DNA of 35,568 nucleotides, taken from positions 1-35,568 of the forward strand of contig JAJPIP010000109.1 of assembly GCA_021324655.1 (NCBI GenBank), in the 5' to 3' direction. The position numbers were made by a program, and so were the translations under genes. Below are positions 7,589 through 16,729 of the stretch, in pieces; positions within the stretch are counted from its first letter, which is position 1; the number at the start of each line of letters is the position of its first letter. The notes under the pieces were generated by a model. It was not told the origin of the DNA and searched no databases. It worked only from the letters and a program-made list of their open reading frames with translations. Source of the stretch: Pseudomonadota bacterium. GTDB lineage: Bacteria > Chloroflexota > UBA5177.

Positions 7589-8205
7589 TGTGGCCCTTTC
7601 GACGGCATGACCCTGACCCCGCGGACTTGCGGCTCGTGGTCGGGCTCGGCAATCCGGGACCACGCTACGAGAAGACGCGGCACAACATCGGCTTCATGGT
7701 CGTCAACGAGCTGGCGCGCCGCGGCAACGCCGCCTTCAAAGCCTCCAGACAGCAAGCGGACGTCGCCAGGGTGACGCTGGACGGCATTCCCATCCTCCTG
7801 GCGCAGCCCCTCACCTACATGAATGAGAGCGGCCGCGCCGTCTCACTCCTGATGCACTACTACAGGGTTCCGCTCGATCGCCTGCTCATCGTGTGCGACG
7901 ACATCGATCTTCCCTTCGGAACCATCCGATTACGCCCCTCCGGCAGCTCGGGCGGACAGAAGGGACTGCGCTCAATCATGCATGAGCTGCACACAGAGGA
8001 CTTTGCTCGACTGCGTCTCGGCGTGAGCCGGCCGCGGGGGCAGGCCGCCTCTCACGTTCTCGCGCCATTTCCTCCGGGCGAGCTTCGCGCGCTGCCGGAG
8101 CTCGTCGGCATCGCGGCCGACGCCGTCCTCGCCGCGCTGCGCGACGGCACTCAGCCGGCCATAAACGCGTACAACCGCAACTGGCTAACCGAGGTACAGC
8201 GGTAG
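7588..8205 (+). CDS. pth: Peptidyl-tRNA hydrolase
   Basis: The 205-residue enzyme recycles tRNA from peptidyl-tRNA that drops off ribosomes. The signatures are VVGLGNPGPRYEKTRHNIGF, with Asn22 and catalytic His32, then QPLTYMNESG, CDDIDLPFG with the key Asp, and GSSGGQKGLRSI. The first 12 residues are an extension before the conserved core. ATG 7588 overlaps the rsmA stop (ATGA), indicating translational coupling; the long open frame upstream is the shadow of rsmA. The glmS leader begins right after its stop. Confidence 0.96.
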   Translation: MWPFRRHDPDPADLRLVVGLGNPGPRYEKTRHNIGFMVVNELARRGNAAFKASRQQADVARVTLDGIPILLAQPLTYMNESGRAVSLLMHYYRVPLDRLLIVCDDIDLPFGTIRLRPSGSSGGQKGLRSIMHELHTEDFARLRLGVSRPRGQAASHVLAPFPPGELRALPELVGIAADAVLAALRDGTQPAINAYNRNWLTEVQR

Positions 8206-8209
8206 CATC

Positions 8210-8238
8210 TTGCGGCCTGAGTCATTGTGTGCTACAAC
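8210..8238 (+). promoter_or_regulatory. Predicted promoter of the glmS ribozyme leader
   Basis: TTGCGG at 8210-8215 is followed after exactly 17 bases by TACAAC at 8233-8238, starting 4 bases after the pth stop. Transcription from here would begin around 8245, about 28 bases before the ribozyme cleavage site. The matches to consensus are partial, so the call rests mainly on position. Confidence 0.4.
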
Positions 8239-8261
8239 TCCCCGGTAAGGAGGGCCGGGGA

Positions 8262-8412
8262 CCGAACATACAGCGCCGGGCCCGCGTTGCGGGTGACGAG
8301 GTAGAGGTTTATCGAACGATTCGGCGGGTGACCTCTCGGTCGGCACGATCGTCACGAACGGAACAAATCAGGACGGCAACGCCCAGACAAAGACCGTTCG
8401 AGTGCAAGTCTT
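8262..8412 (+). ncRNA. glmS ribozyme (glucosamine-6-phosphate-activated self-cleaving RNA)
   Basis: The sequence matches the glmS ribozyme core in order. ACAGCGCC holds the cleavage site, predicted between A8272 and G8273. A short P1 hairpin follows (GCCCGC at 8280-8285 pairing with GCGGGT). Then come GACGAGG (8295-8301), GGTTTATCGA (8306-8315) and TTCGGCGGGTGACC (8320-8333). AGAGGT at 8303-8308 pairs with ACCTCT at 8331-8336. The GACAAAG block of the 3' domain is at 8386-8392, and CGAACGG (8355-8361) pairs with CCGTTCG (8394-8400). In known examples glucosamine-6-phosphate acts as a coenzyme for cleavage, and the processed mRNA is degraded, giving feedback on glmS. The location directly upstream of glmS agrees. 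The P3 region is less regular than in Bacillus, so exact ends are uncertain. Confidence 0.93.
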
Positions 8413-8487
8413 TCCATTCCCCGGATAGCAAACACTGCATACGCCACCCGTGGCGTGGCGTCGATCACTATATTCGGGATTCGGCGG
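8413..8487 (+). other. Leader segment between the glmS ribozyme and the inverted-repeat element
   Basis: This stretch contains no gene. It has a perfect hairpin, ACGCCAC (8441-8447) with GTGGCGT (8450-8456), without a T-tract, so it is not a convincing terminator. An open frame across 8229-8648 runs through the ribozyme and the repeat and is not coding. Confidence 0.4.
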
Positions 8488-8662
8488 GTGGCCCTCACCC
8501 CCGGCCCCTCTCCCATTGCGATGGGAGAGGGGAGGTATACACCGAGACAGGCTGGGAAAAGCCGTGCCTCGATAGCTACAGAGCATCGTCCCGGGGCGAT
8601 CATCCCCTCAGACTTCCCCCTCGCCCACCGCAGTGGGAGAGGGGGTAGGGGGTGAGGGCCAC
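8488..8662. mobile_element. MITE-like element with perfect 15-bp terminal inverted repeats
   Basis: The 175-bp element is bounded by GTGGCCCTCACCCCC (8488-8502) and its perfect reverse complement (8648-8662). Just inside the left end is a perfect 12-bp hairpin (CCCCTCTCCCAT at 8505-8516 with ATGGGAGAGGGG at 8521-8532, loop TGCG). Near the right end is a 13-bp hairpin with one mismatch (8616-8628 with 8633-8645, loop CGCA). It has no coding capacity. A shortened copy of the right tip follows at 8665-8678, and another fragment lies at 91-125. The structure fits a non-autonomous miniature transposable element or a paired REP-type repeat. It lies inside the glmS 5' untranslated region. Confidence 0.75.
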
Positions 8663-8664
8663 AC

Positions 8665-8678
8665 GGGGTGAGGGCCAC
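8665..8678. repeat. Duplicated tip of the inverted-repeat element
   Basis: GGGGTGAGGGCCAC repeats the last 14 bases of the adjacent element end (8649-8662) in direct orientation after two bases. It may be a trace of a second insertion or of slippage. It ends 32 bases before the glmS start codon. Confidence 0.6.
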
Positions 8679-8710
8679 GCCGACCGGATCCTGCACTCAG
8701 GGGGCTTGGA

Positions 8711-10462
8711 ATGTGCGGCATCTTTGGTTTCGTCTCGTCGCGGCAGCGCGAGGCGTCGGTTGTGTTTGAAGCGCTGCGGGAGTTGGAATACCGCGGCTAC
8801 GACTCGTGGGGGATCGCGGTCGATACCGGCGGGCGGCTCGCCGTCGAAAAACATGTCGGCCCGATCAGCCGCGCGACGGCGGCGCTCCCCGCCGGACGCG
8901 CCGCGCTCGGGCACACGCGCTGGGCGACGCATGGAGGGGTGACCGACGCGAACGCGCATCCGCACCTGGATTGTTCCGGACGCTTCGCGCTTATTCACAA
9001 CGGCATCGTCGAGAACCACCGGGAGCTGGCGGCGCGTCTTGGCTCGGGGCACTGCTTCCGCTCGCAGACCGACACGGAGGTGCTGGTGCACTCGCTGGAG
9101 GAGAGAGCAGGCGACGTCGACCTGCTACCAGCGCTGCTGGCGGTGATTAGAGACGTTCAGGGACTCAGCGCCGTCGCCGTTCTCGACGTGTGCACCGGGC
9201 AGATAGTGGCGGCAAAGAACGGCTCTCCCCTGGCTGTCGGATGGGGTGATGACGGCATCTACCTGTCGTCGGACCCGGCCGCCCTGGGGACGCACGCGCG
9301 CGAGGTCGCGTTCCTGGAGGACGGCCACGCGGTTGCATTGGGTGATCGCGGCGCAGCCGCATTTGACATCGCGACGGGGCTCCCCGTGACCCTCACGCGG
9401 AATCGGGTGGAGTGCGAGGCGCAGCGGGGAACGCTCGCCGGGTATCGGGACTACATGACGAAGGAGATCCACGAGCAGCCGGAAGCGTTGCGCCGGATCG
9501 CGCACGATCCCGGCCCGGCAGCTCTGGGTCAGCTATTCGAGCAGGCCCGAGAGATTGTCCTCACCGGTTGCGGGACCGCATACCACGCGGCGCTATCGGG
9601 CCGAGCCTACCTCGCCGCCGCCGGTCGTGCCGCTCATGTCGCCATGGCCTCGGAGATGCCGGCGCTGGAGCCGATGCTTGATGCGGACACCCTGGTTGTC
9701 GCACTGTCACAGAGCGGGGAGACGATTGACGTCCTGGAAGCCGTGCGGGCCGCGCGCGCGGCCGGTGCCCGCGTTGCCTCCGTCGTCAATGTTCCCGGGT
9801 CAACCCTGGACCGGTTGTGCGACGTCTCCGTGCACCTGGCGTGCGGCCCGGAAAAGTGCGTTCTGGCGACGAAGTCGTACACCGGCAAGCTTGCTGTTCT
9901 CCAGATTGCGGCGGGCTGCGCCGCAGGTAGGGAGAGCGAAACGCGCGCCGCCGTCGCCGCCTCCGCCGACGCGATCGAGACCGTCCTCCGGCAGGAGGCA
10001 TCCGATCGAGCGATCCGCCGGGCTGCCGAGCGGATCGCCGAGGACCAGCATCTCTTCATCCTGGGGCGCGGTCAGTGCTATCCGGCAGCGCTCGAGACCG
10101 CGTTGAAGATCAAGGAGGTGTCATACCTTCACGCCGAGGGATTCCCGTCGGGTGAGTTGAAGCACGGTGTCATCGCCCTCGTCACCAACGGCACGCCATG
10201 CATCATCCTCGCTCCCGACGGGCCGGGCAGGAAGGAGGCGCTGGCGGCGGCGGCTGAAGTCAGAGCCCGGGGCGCCTTCACCATTGGTGTCTCGCCCTGC
10301 GACGAGCCCGAATTTGATCTCACGCTGCGTGCCGGGAAAGAAAGTACAGCGCTCTTCGAGATCGCGGCGACCGCTCAGCTTCTGGCATACAACCTCGCCA
10401 TCCTCCGCGGCTGCGATCCCGACAAACCGCGCAACCTCGCCAAGAGCGTGACGGTCAAGTGA
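8711..10462 (+). CDS. glmS: Glutamine-fructose-6-phosphate aminotransferase (isomerizing)
   Basis: The 583-residue enzyme makes glucosamine-6-phosphate from fructose-6-phosphate and glutamine, the entry step to peptidoglycan and other amino sugars. Cys2 (MCGIFGF) is the N-terminal nucleophile of the glutaminase domain (about 1-220), followed by RGYDSWG and HTRWATHG. Two SIS domains follow, with LTGCGTAYHAAL, ALSQSGETIDVLEA and ATKSYTG in the first and LGRGQCYPAALETALKIKE with EGFPSGELKHG in the second. The end is the typical PRNLAKSVTVK. It is slightly shorter than the usual 600-610 residues. AGGGGG precedes the ATG by about 7 bases. Expression is very probably controlled by the ribozyme at 8262-8412. 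The stop lies 3 bases from the end of the convergent flavin-reductase gene. Confidence 0.97.
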   Translation: MCGIFGFVSSRQREASVVFEALRELEYRGYDSWGIAVDTGGRLAVEKHVGPISRATAALPAGRAALGHTRWATHGGVTDANAHPHLDCSGRFALIHNGIVENHRELAARLGSGHCFRSQTDTEVLVHSLEERAGDVDLLPALLAVIRDVQGLSAVAVLDVCTGQIVAAKNGSPLAVGWGDDGIYLSSDPAALGTHAREVAFLEDGHAVALGDRGAAAFDIATGLPVTLTRNRVECEAQRGTLAGYRDYMTKEIHEQPEALRRIAHDPGPAALGQLFEQAREIVLTGCGTAYHAALSGRAYLAAAGRAAHVAMASEMPALEPMLDADTLVVALSQSGETIDVLEAVRAARAAGARVASVVNVPGSTLDRLCDVSVHLACGPEKCVLATKSYTGKLAVLQIAAGCAAGRESETRAAVAASADAIETVLRQEASDRAIRRAAERIAEDQHLFILGRGQCYPAALETALKIKEVSYLHAEGFPSGELKHGVIALVTNGTPCIILAPDGPGRKEALAAAAEVRARGAFTIGVSPCDEPEFDLTLRAGKESTALFEIAATAQLLAYNLAILRGCDPDKPRNLAKSVTVK

Positions 10463-13531: not shown

Positions 13532-15186
13532 GCATTCCCCCTGTACAGGACGCGGACGGCGGCTTCCACGGACGAAAAGCACTCGCTGCCGGTCCTGCCC
13601 GGAGTCAGATGGCGGTACAGGTCGATCACGTGGTCCATGTAGCGCCAATCGTGCGGCGCGTTATTGATGGGAAACTGGATGCCCAGGACGGCCGGCCTCG
13701 TCTCGAACTCGGCGACCTTCCGGTATCCGGGCGCGCGCGGCAGCCGGCTGAGAAAGGCATCGACGCGCGCGTTCGGGATCCGTGGATGTTCCTCCCACTC
13801 ATAGCTATCCACCGCTGCATAGTCTGCCTGACCGCGCAGCCGTTGCGCCAGAAAGTCCGAGATACAGGGGCGATACCCCGCGTCGCCGGCATAGTAGGCC
13901 AGGTTAAGCAGTCCGTCCGGAAGCTCGCCAAAACTGATGTAGGAGCCGCGGGCGGCATGATGCTGCAGCCAGGAGACCGCCTCGACACGGGTATCCGGGT
14001 GGGTGAAAAGTTGAGCGTAGGCCACATCGTACGCCAGGCCGTAGAGAAGGGAGCCTGCCGCCGCGGTCGCCGCGACGATGGTGAGGGCTCGGCGCCGAGC
14101 GGCGATGAGGTCGACGAGAAAGACCGCGGCCAGAACGGCCAGGGCAGGGAGCAGGGGAGCGCTGTAGCGCATGAATTTCGCGGGGGAGGCCGTTATCAAC
14201 ACAAAGTATGAGATCACCCAGGCCAACAAAATCAGCTCGGCCCGCCGCCGTGAGACGCATGCCCAGGCCGCCCCGAGCACAAGCCAGGCGGCGAGGGCGG
14301 CGCCGACCCCATACCCGAGGTCGTACCGCACCACGTATTGCCACGCGGGCCCGTAGCGCGCGAAGCGGCCCTGATATTGCGCGCCGCTGTCAACGGTTCT
14401 GATCCGCAGCGTGTGCAGCGTTGCCTGCCAGAATGCCGGAAACTCGACGAGAGCATAGGGATTTGTGATCACCCACGCGGCGGCTGCCGCCCCGGCCGCG
14501 ATCAGCAGCGTTCGGACGGAACGACACCCGGAGAGCCAATACGCCACGGCGAACGGAATCGCCAGCAGCACCATGTGGAACTCGCTGGCTGCGGCGAAGC
14601 CGGACAACATGCCGGCGATGGCAAAGCGGGGGATGCTGGGAGAGTCGGCCGCCCAGACCAGAGCGAGCAGTGCCGCGCTGAGCAAAAACACGGTGGTCGA
14701 ATCCGGCGTGGCAAAGTGGGCAAGCTGAATGAGCAAAGCAAAGGACGCAGTCAGGCCGGCCGCGATCAGACCCACCGCCGCCCCCCTTGTGAGGCGGCCG
14801 AGGTTGTACACGACCGGCACCGTGAGAGTGGAGACCAAGACCGATGTCAGGCGGCCGGCCAGCACGTTGTGGATGAAGATTGGGTCCGCGTGTCCAAATG
14901 GAGCGTGTGGCACCACGGCATAGACGGGGGAGAGCAGCAGCCGCGCGGCATAGCCAAGGTAGAGATAGGCGGCGCCCCAGTCAAAGAAGCACGAGGTGCG
15001 CACGTTGGGGCACGGGTTAAGCGCGTCATGACCAAACCACTGGAAAAGCCAGTAGACGGTCCACTCGTCCGGGTGCGGGCGCGTCGATATGGTCACATCG
15101 TGCATGCCCCAGGTGATGCCCCAGACGCGAAACGCAAGCGCGCCGAGCACAATAGCGCCCAGTATCAGGCGCCGGGCCGCCCGCAC
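13528..15186 (-). CDS. GT-C type membrane glycosyltransferase (dolichyl-phosphate-mannose mannosyltransferase-like)
   Basis: This polytopic membrane protein of about 552 residues has a first transmembrane segment (LILGAIVLGALAFRVWGI). An acidic luminal loop with HPDEWTVYW follows, where GT-C enzymes keep their catalytic Asp/Glu. Many more hydrophobic helices and a soluble C-terminal tail come next. It resembles the PMT/ArnT-like family, which transfers sugars from polyprenyl-phosphate donors on the outer membrane face. I favour GTG 15186, five bases after the flippase stop with GAGGG upstream. ATG 15264 would add 26 Ser/Lys-rich residues and overlap the flippase by 74 bases. Donor and acceptor are unknown. 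The gene lies between the flippase and the secreted phosphodiesterase and is translationally coupled to the latter. Confidence 0.85.
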   Translation of the reverse strand: MRAARRLILGAIVLGALAFRVWGITWGMHDVTISTRPHPDEWTVYWLFQWFGHDALNPCPNVRTSCFFDWGAAYLYLGYAARLLLSPVYAVVPHAPFGHADPIFIHNVLAGRLTSVLVSTLTVPVVYNLGRLTRGAAVGLIAAGLTASFALLIQLAHFATPDSTTVFLLSAALLALVWAADSPSIPRFAIAGMLSGFAAASEFHMVLLAIPFAVAYWLSGCRSVRTLLIAAGAAAAAWVITNPYALVEFPAFWQATLHTLRIRTVDSGAQYQGRFARYGPAWQYVVRYDLGYGVGAALAAWLVLGAAWACVSRRRAELILLAWVISYFVLITASPAKFMRYSAPLLPALAVLAAVFLVDLIAARRRALTIVAATAAAGSLLYGLAYDVAYAQLFTHPDTRVEAVSWLQHHAARGSYISFGELPDGLLNLAYYAGDAGYRPCISDFLAQRLRGQADYAAVDSYEWEEHPRIPNARVDAFLSRLPRAPGYRKVAEFETRPAVLGIQFPINNAPHDWRYMDHVIDLYRHLTPGRTGSECFSSVEAAVRVLYRGNA

Positions 15187-15190
15187 TCGT

Positions 15191-16729
15191 TTAGAAGCCC
15201 TTGAGGAGGGTGCGCCTTGCTTCGACGATGATGCGGCGGTCGAGGACGAGAAGCGAACCGACATAGACGAGCGCCCCCACGATCAGGCAGAGACCAAGCG
15301 TGACAGTCGCGCCGAGCTGCATTTCGCGCGTCAGCGCGAGCTCGACCGCGACGACGGCGCCGGCCATCACGAGGGTGGAGATCACCGGCACCGAAGCAGA
15401 GCGCGCGACCTGCGCCGGCGAGACCCCAAGTACCCGCCACGCGAGGATGAGAGCCACCGGGAACTCGATGATCTGAATCGGAATATACGTGAGAGCCAGA
15501 CCGAGGATACCGTGCTGAGCGCCAAAATACATCGCCGGCGCCATGATCGCGAGCTTGACCGCGTTGTACGCCCACACGAGCCACGGCTTGCCGATCGACT
15601 TGTAGCCCTCGAAAAAGATCGACAGCATCGTTCGGTTACCGGCATAGACGGCCAGCAACGTCAGGACCAGGTACTGATCCTGAAACCGGGCGAACTTGGT
15701 GCCGAGAATAGGGACGATTAACACGGGAGCCACGGCAGCGAGGAGAGCAGCGGCTGGGAACATGACGAGACCCAGTTGTCGAATCGCGCCGAGTAACGTC
15801 ACCCGCAGGGCGACGATGTCATCCCGCAGCCGGCTCAGGGTCGGAAAGACCATGCTGCTGGCGACAAGGGTGAAGACGCTGGCCGCAATGAAGGCCAGCT
15901 TCCATGAGGTCGTGTAGAAGCCAATGGCAGCGACGTCGCTGATTACATGGCTGCCGATGAACACATCCACGTTCTGGGACATGTACAGCACGGTGAGGCC
16001 CGCGCCGATCCAGAAGCCATACTTGAAGAGACGCCATGCGATTCTCGGAACAAACTCCAGAGTCGGCCGGTACGGGTAGACGGCCCACAGGAGGATCGTG
16101 CCCATGATGACGGAGGCCAGCTGACGTGCGACCAGCGAGCCGACGCCGAAGCCCCACACCGCGAAGAGCACGGAGAGATCGCCGGCGACGATGACCTGTC
16201 CGATAGGAGGCACGGCGCGCGCGCGGAAGTCCAGGTCGCGCATCAGCAGGAAGGAGTGCACGCTGGCCGCGGAGGCAAACAGATACCCGATCGCCAGGAT
16301 GCGAAGCAGGCCGACGATCTCGGGGTGATGAAAGAAGAGAGCTATCTGTGGGGCCAGGATCTCGAGCGCAGCCGTGACGATCGCGGCAAAGATCATATTG
16401 AGCGTCCAGGCCGTGTTCGCAACCTGACGGCTTACCTGACGCTCGAAGACAAGGGCCGGACCAGTGCCGAAGTTCCGGAAGTTGTCGAAAAAGTTGTACG
16501 GCACCATGGACTCGTCAAAGAGTCCGGACGCGCCCGGTCCAAGGAACCGGCGTAGCCCAATGGTGAAGATGGGCCCCAGGACTTTCGGGGTGGCCATGGC
16601 AAACAGCACCCAGAACGCCCCATGAGTGGACGGGAGCATATCGACGAGGCGGTGGCCGAACTCGGCCGCTTTCGAGATAAGCCCCTGCGTTGGCTCCTCT
16701 CGGACCGCCTCCTGTGTTTGGACGGACAT
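15191..16729 (-). CDS. Polysaccharide flippase (Wzx/MOP superfamily)
   Basis: The 512-residue protein has about 12-14 hydrophobic segments and the layout of oligosaccharide flippases in the MOP superfamily, including an ATPKVLGPIFTIGLRRFLG start and the repeated six-helix modules. Such proteins move polyprenyl-linked sugar units across the cytoplasmic membrane. A cytoplasmic N-terminus of about 40 polar residues precedes the first helix. AGGGGCG stands upstream of ATG 16729. It is the first gene of the minus-strand operon with the GT-C glycosyltransferase and the phosphodiesterase, and it is divergent from the TagA-type glycosyltransferase across a 73-base AT-rich gap that must hold both promoters. 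Confidence 0.9.
   Translation of the reverse strand: MSVQTQEAVREEPTQGLISKAAEFGHRLVDMLPSTHGAFWVLFAMATPKVLGPIFTIGLRRFLGPGASGLFDESMVPYNFFDNFRNFGTGPALVFERQVSRQVANTAWTLNMIFAAIVTAALEILAPQIALFFHHPEIVGLLRILAIGYLFASAASVHSFLLMRDLDFRARAVPPIGQVIVAGDLSVLFAVWGFGVGSLVARQLASVIMGTILLWAVYPYRPTLEFVPRIAWRLFKYGFWIGAGLTVLYMSQNVDVFIGSHVISDVAAIGFYTTSWKLAFIAASVFTLVASSMVFPTLSRLRDDIVALRVTLLGAIRQLGLVMFPAAALLAAVAPVLIVPILGTKFARFQDQYLVLTLLAVYAGNRTMLSIFFEGYKSIGKPWLVWAYNAVKLAIMAPAMYFGAQHGILGLALTYIPIQIIEFPVALILAWRVLGVSPAQVARSASVPVISTLVMAGAVVAVELALTREMQLGATVTLGLCLIVGALVYVGSLLVLDRRIIVEARRTLLKGF

Follow-up and report, generated by a model that had tools for sequence, protein, structure and literature searches.

An intact, compact glmS ribozyme in the glmS leader of a Chloroflexota genome, with relatives across the phylum

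The window, by which we mean the whole 35,568-nucleotide stretch of DNA analysed here, carries a glmS ribozyme in the 5' leader of glmS and on the same strand, and we put at about 95% the probability that it controls this gene through glucosamine-6-phosphate (GlcN6P), where the dependence on GlcN6P, the cleavage and the ensuing decay are extrapolated from Bacillus subtilis. A search of the window with the covariance model RF00234 returned a full-length match (model positions 1-167 of 167) at 8261-8410 on the forward strand, with a score of 84 bits (E 4.1e-18), more than twice the gathering score of 37 bits that serves as the membership threshold for the glmS ribozyme. This copy is the sole match in the 3.8 Mb genome, which we take to belong to the Chloroflexota; its GlmS is 45-48% identical to those of Thermomicrobium and of another genome of the phylum. 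The downstream gene encodes the only full-length GlmS of the genome, all other matches being partial and 30-43% identical. An earlier note, made from the letters of the DNA, had proposed a glmS ribozyme ahead of glmS in a high-GC, non-Firmicute genome and had named the Rfam model as the way to check it. The match bears this out, the five core blocks listed in that note are all found in the right order, and the Rfam alignment places the cut where the note predicted it, between A8272 and G8273. Its further statement that glmS lies directly downstream holds for the identity of the gene but not for the distance, as the ATG at 8711 stands about 300 nt past the ribozyme. Taken by itself, the window adds one more ribozyme to a known class and holds little surprise.

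Table 1. Coordinates of the features discussed; positions are those of the window unless a locus is named
Feature	Position	Strand	Basis or remark
pth, peptidyl-tRNA hydrolase, upstream neighbour	7624-8205	+	profile match (TIGR00447)
Possible -10 element TACAAC	8233-8238	+	by eye, weak; TTGCGG at 8210-8215, 17-nt spacer
TAAGGAGG, Shine-Dalgarno-like	8246-8253	+	8-nt match to complement of 16S anti-Shine-Dalgarno
Core block ACAGCGCC	8270-8277	+	sequence
Predicted cleavage site A(-1)/G1	8272-8273	+	Rfam alignment; AGCG kept in relatives
P2.2 5' strand	8274-8279	+	sequence; register as in PMC7125110
P1 hairpin, 6 bp, loop GUU	8280-8294 (8280-8285 with 8289-8294)	+	Rfam alignment, sequence, relatives
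GACGAGG, also a core block	8295-8301	+	sequence, Rfam alignment, relatives; G8298 = equivalent of catalytic G39 of B. subtilis
P2 5' strand	8303-8307, pairs with 8332-8336	+	Rfam alignment, P2 covariation
Core block GGTTTATCGA	8306-8315	+	sequence
Core block TTCGGCGG	8320-8327	+	sequence
P3 hairpin with L3, 5 bp	8337-8351 (8337-8341 with 8347-8351)	+	Rfam alignment, P3.1 test
P3.1, L3 strand GCAC	8343-8346	+	anchored pairing test
P4	8355-8400	+	outer helix CGAACGG/CCGUUCG, 7 bp (8355-8361 with 8394-8400)
Core block GACAAAG	8386-8392	+	sequence
P3.1, 3' strand GUGC	8402-8405	+	anchored pairing test
Dispersed inverted-repeat element between ribozyme and glmS	~8482-8684	+	~200 bp
glmS, glutamine--fructose-6-phosphate transaminase	8711-10462	+	TIGR01135, 554 bits, cut-off 418
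glnA-linked ribozyme, L151	3001-3218	+	
glnA-linked ribozyme, L153	3001-3220	+	
glnA-linked ribozyme, L155	3001-3218	-	
glnA-linked ribozyme, L158	3001-3204	+	
glnA-linked ribozyme, L159	395-602	+	
Further glnA-linked loci: L230, L232, L234, L237, L238, L240, L243, L244, L246, L248, L251, L253, L255, L258, L260, L262, L264, L266, L268			

Residues were mapped onto the B. subtilis numbering of PMC11602151, with P2.2 positions as in PMC7125110. The A(-1)/G1 site, the equivalent of the catalytic G39 and the pairs of P2.1 (C8297-G8314, G8298-C8313 and A8299-U8312) and of P2.2 (C8274-G8326, G8275-C8325, C8276-G8324, C8277-G8323 and G8279-C8322) are all present in the sequence. G8278 is bulged between pairs 5-53 and 7-52, which is the canonical register. 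Further along, L4 is a GCAA tetraloop (8376-8379), a member of the GNRA class, which faces G8292 in P1; this residue, in the receptor pair C8282-G8292, is the equivalent of G33 and the expected L4 receptor. The purine-rich internal loop of P4 consists of AAA at 8365-8367 and ACAAAG at 8387-8392. In all, the mapped residues, which serve catalysis, the ligand site and tertiary contacts, namely A-1, G1, G33, A37, C38, G39, A40, C54, G55 and G67 are kept, as are the P4 internal-loop purines and the GNRA L4. Two mismatched pairs in P4, seen in the Rfam alignment, together with the draft state of the genome, might be taken as signs of a degenerate ribozyme that survives as a sequence relic only. We consider this very improbable in view of a core in which every residue is kept, a P4 outer helix that is perfect over its 7 bp, the retained GNRA loop and receptor, and a score similar to those of the relatives.

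The P3.1 pseudoknot is not part of RF00234 and was assessed separately by strand pairing. The comparison covered the 60 Chloroflexota ribozymes whose two ends could both be located. L3 paired with the tail of its own sequence scores 9.88, as against 7.72 for shuffled tails (sd 0.21, maximum 8.3) and 8.46 for tails swapped between sequences (sd 0.25, maximum 9.17), so that the phylum-wide value exceeds all 200 control sets. Compensatory examples include GAACAG/CUGUUC in L017 and CGCAC/GUGCG in L013. The signal became clear once the regions were anchored on P3 and on the outer helix of P4; in an unanchored version of the test, run on loosely placed regions, the signal was absent (13.39 versus 13.20 shuffled).

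Judged by its sequence, the window element is thus an intact, compact and canonical glmS ribozyme, with no structural oddity. The earlier note had seen a possibly divergent variant, with a very short P1 and an irregular P3, and had implied that such ribozymes are rare outside the Firmicutes. Divergence is contradicted by the canonical core, bulge register, P3.1 and P4, by the score and by close relatives in the same family and order. P1 is indeed short, its 6 bp including one G-U and its loop having 3 nt, but the relatives share this trait; P3 turns out to be no defect but a hairpin of 5 bp, with a loop that makes the usual P3.1 pseudoknot; and roughly one in three of the Chloroflexota genomes sampled has a ribozyme of this class. 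The ribozymes of B. subtilis, B. anthracis and Thermoanaerobacter tengcongensis resemble the window copy in their core blocks, P2.1/P2.2, P3.1, full-length RF00234 match, GNRA L4 with a P1 receptor, and downstream glmS. Compared with these, the window copy is GC-rich, has a shorter P1 (6 bp) and a shorter L3/P3.1 (4 bp), bears a Shine-Dalgarno (SD)-like sequence 5' of the cut, and is separated from the glmS start by some 300 nt on account of the inserted repeat. The likeness to ribozymes of Thermomicrobium and other Chloroflexota (L002, L006, L007, L013, L017, L033-L039) extends to the compact form, the gene order, the P2.2 bulge at position 6, the GCAC/GUGC P3.1 and, in most of this set, the SD-like leader; in these relatives no repeat element separates the ribozyme from glmS, and the helices differ in minor features.

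The glmS ribozyme is a standard device in the Chloroflexota, rather than a Firmicutes oddity. With RF00234, 125 of 400 genomes sampled over the phylum match at E <= 0.001, with 111 exceeding the cut-off, and glmS lies downstream of 123 of the 130 phylum hits. Four of five genomes of the host's own family and the single genome of the next family carry the ribozyme, and orthologous copies stand ahead of glmS in related genomes from its family and order. Deinobacterium chartae, also a non-Firmicute, is RF00234 positive and served as a control. Two Clostridia-like genomes, searched for a ribozyme for comparison of Firmicutes leaders, yielded none. Some members of the phylum depart from the common form. 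In family f23, four species (L224, L225, L226 and L228) have matches of 28-31 bits upstream of glmS that start with UUGGUGCGUG rather than the usual AGCGCC. From the sequence, these ribozymes are possibly non-cleaving or re-registered, or else the start of the alignment is misplaced. In the glmS-linked copies L152, L154 and L156 of family f39, the stretch between P2 and P2.1 holds additional hairpins, and the P4 ACAAAG domain seems to be missing.

In B. subtilis, GlcN6P brings about self-cleavage of the glmS leader, and the product with its 5'-OH end then decays in an RNase J1-dependent manner (PMC3997798). The host genome holds one gene with the RMMBL domain of RNase J, which scores 591 bits against TIGR00649 (RNase J family; cut-off 400). 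Given that both RNase J and the ribozyme are present, the B. subtilis circuit is the best explanation here. By this analogy, transcription would start just 5' of the ribozyme, and the RNA would adopt the double pseudoknot of P2, P2.1 and P2.2, with P1, P3/P3.1 and P4 as braces. Plentiful GlcN6P would then bind as coenzyme and bring about self-cleavage at the predicted site. The cut would leave the glmS part with a 5'-OH end, after which RNase J would degrade the glmS part from that end and less GlmS would be made. To this we add a tentative proposal of our own, that 30S subunits bound at the leader TAAGGAGG would shield the uncut mRNA, in which case the cut would also remove this protector. 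TAC/TATA boxes similar to the window's TACAAC occur at comparable places in the relatives, and a consensus promoter scan gave nothing above threshold.

One peculiarity of this locus bears on the mechanism. The repeat element between ribozyme and glmS has arms of 35 nt (8498-8532 and 8617-8651) that are 83% complementary, and the genome contains about a dozen near-full copies of it and many partial ones; other copies are at loci L095-L105, and a fragment lies at 88-125 of the window. The inserted element makes up most of the gap between the ribozyme match and glmS and accounts for its extra length, 301 nt here against 90-157 nt in relatives from its family and order. The repeat could fold into a strong hairpin that slows a 5' exonuclease. 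Carried further, this line of thought has a ribozyme that is intact in sequence but whose regulation is weakened or lost, as the hairpin halts RNase J before the coding region. The position, arms and copy number of the element and the widened gap all accord with such a block, although the core and periphery of the ribozyme show no decay and the element lies apart from the ribosome-binding region by the ATG; we think it unlikely and retain GlcN6P control of glmS as the preferred reading. At the left edge of the element, a 16-nt direct repeat (94%; 8318-8333 and 8478-8493) copies the region of the P2.2 3' strand. This is probably due to chance; the copy could act as a decoy strand. Elsewhere, positions 14001-16000 have an AT skew (0.29) that greatly exceeds that of the remaining window.

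The leader itself offers a possible reason why cutting would destabilise the message. The SD-like TAAGGAGG lies 19 nt before the cut and near the expected transcription start, with no ATG, GTG or TTG at normal spacing after it, and so has the configuration that defines a STAB-SD, a strong SD without a start codon near the 5' end of an mRNA. In many Chloroflexota glmS leaders, too, an SD-like TAAGGAGG(UG) precedes the cleavage site and has no start codon. When the 55 nt before the cut of 130 phylum ribozymes were scanned for matches to UAAGGAGGUGAUC, with the same loci as background, matches of at least 8 nt were found in 17 leaders against a background of 0.85% (about one expected), and matches of at least 6 nt in 48 against 11%, both counts including kin within families. 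The longer matches occur in 10 of 28 families. Families f11, f18 and f37 are without the motif, which is thus not required for ribozyme control. Two patterns designed for the 16S 3' end had no match in the host genome or in 61 genomes, complete ones included, a result that points to a fault of the patterns or of masking.

According to the passage of PMC3997798 that cites the STAB-SD paper, a strong SD without a start codon stabilises mRNA in organisms with RNase J. Cleavage would sever the leader SD, which suggests a severable mRNA stabiliser. Tentatively, and with the odds somewhat against it, we propose that in many Chloroflexota, the host included, the glmS ribozyme would serve as scissors for a start-codon-less SD stabiliser, with the GlcN6P-driven cut both severing the 30S-bound protector and opening a 5'-OH entry for RNase J. 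If true, the conserved SD upstream of the cut gives a concrete reason why cutting destabilises the message. The arrangement recalls the 5' stabilisers of cry and other Gram-positive leaders in that a strong start-codon-less SD stands at the mRNA 5' end in an RNase J organism; it differs from them in that the ribozyme would remove the SD, and the present case is known from sequence. Alternatively, ribosomes might bind at TAAGGAGG to translate a short leader peptide, or TAAGGAGG might pair with the P2 3' strand in place of its normal partner and so keep the ribozyme inactive. In 3 of 48 relatives an ATG does follow at normal spacing, the GGAGG is similar to the 5' strand of P2, and the 3' strand of P2 often reads CCUCC. 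Nevertheless, a start codon at that spacing is absent from the window and from most relatives, and the match often extends to AAGGAGGUGA, as anti-SD pairing predicts. The leader and the P2 3' strand do not covary (13.24 versus 13.28 when swapped), while the two P2 strands do so with each other (13.98 versus 11.78, sd 0.23). We therefore regard either role as improbable. Pairing of the leader GGAGG with P2, tried as a candidate, is disfavoured by the same absence of covariation.

Two RF00234 matches are common in genomes of family f39. In the 24 genomes whose matches were read, glmS follows one of them and glnA the other. Such glnA-linked ribozymes occur in five Chloroflexota families other than the host's (f39, f92, f94, f95 and f99), and the three GlnA proteins checked with NCBIfam are type I glutamine synthetases (TIGR00653, 523-539 bits, cut-off 429). 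Several of the copies pass the Rfam threshold, with 40-53 bits, and others fall below it. An alignment of 15 sequences of this type, comprising 14 glnA-linked copies and L250, whose downstream gene is of another kind, shows compensatory changes in 34 of 52 pairs and keeps GACGAGG or AACGAGG, AUCGA and the GGNGAC tetraloop region, with P3.1 recognisable by eye.

The two types are set apart by position 4 of P2.2. Among the 24 scored copies of the glnA type this position is never C (G in 20, A in 3 and U in 1), whereas C stands there in each of the 136 other scored copies; 134 of these were shown to lie ahead of glmS, and for two the gene is off the contig or was not identified. Together with A53, this fits a P2.2 bulge moved from position 6 to position 4 in the glnA type, in the predicted register C2-G56, G3-C55, bulge, C5-G54, U6-A53 and G7-C52. 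A second register that is common in the Chloroflexota has AGCGCAUG with A53 and the bulge at 5, and shifted P2.2 bulges have been inferred from in-vitro double mutants (PMC7125110). The glnA-linked ribozyme may be a coenzyme-specificity variant, or may provide GlcN6P feedback on glutamine supply. If real, the glnA-linked paralogue with its moved bulge would be a glmS ribozyme controlling a gene other than glmS, possibly with another coenzyme. Our search of the open-access literature turned up no description of a glmS ribozyme ahead of glnA.

Several minor features accompany this group. L250 (251-465, forward strand, genome G437) is a third glmS-type ribozyme; it is of the glnA type, is upstream of neither glmS nor glnA, and precedes a short ORF (MAEENALPIEFNEIEDEYIEQRIQP...). 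In alignment A2 of the glnA-linked copies, columns 19-24 and 177-182 form a seemingly covarying helix (GGAGAU with UUCUCC) that connects leader sequence immediately before the cleavage site to the strand after P3 and might thereby keep the 5' product attached once the RNA is cut. Finally, a 6S RNA (RF00013, 47 bits) lies just upstream of the glnA-linked ribozyme in L158, at 2794-2969 on the forward strand.
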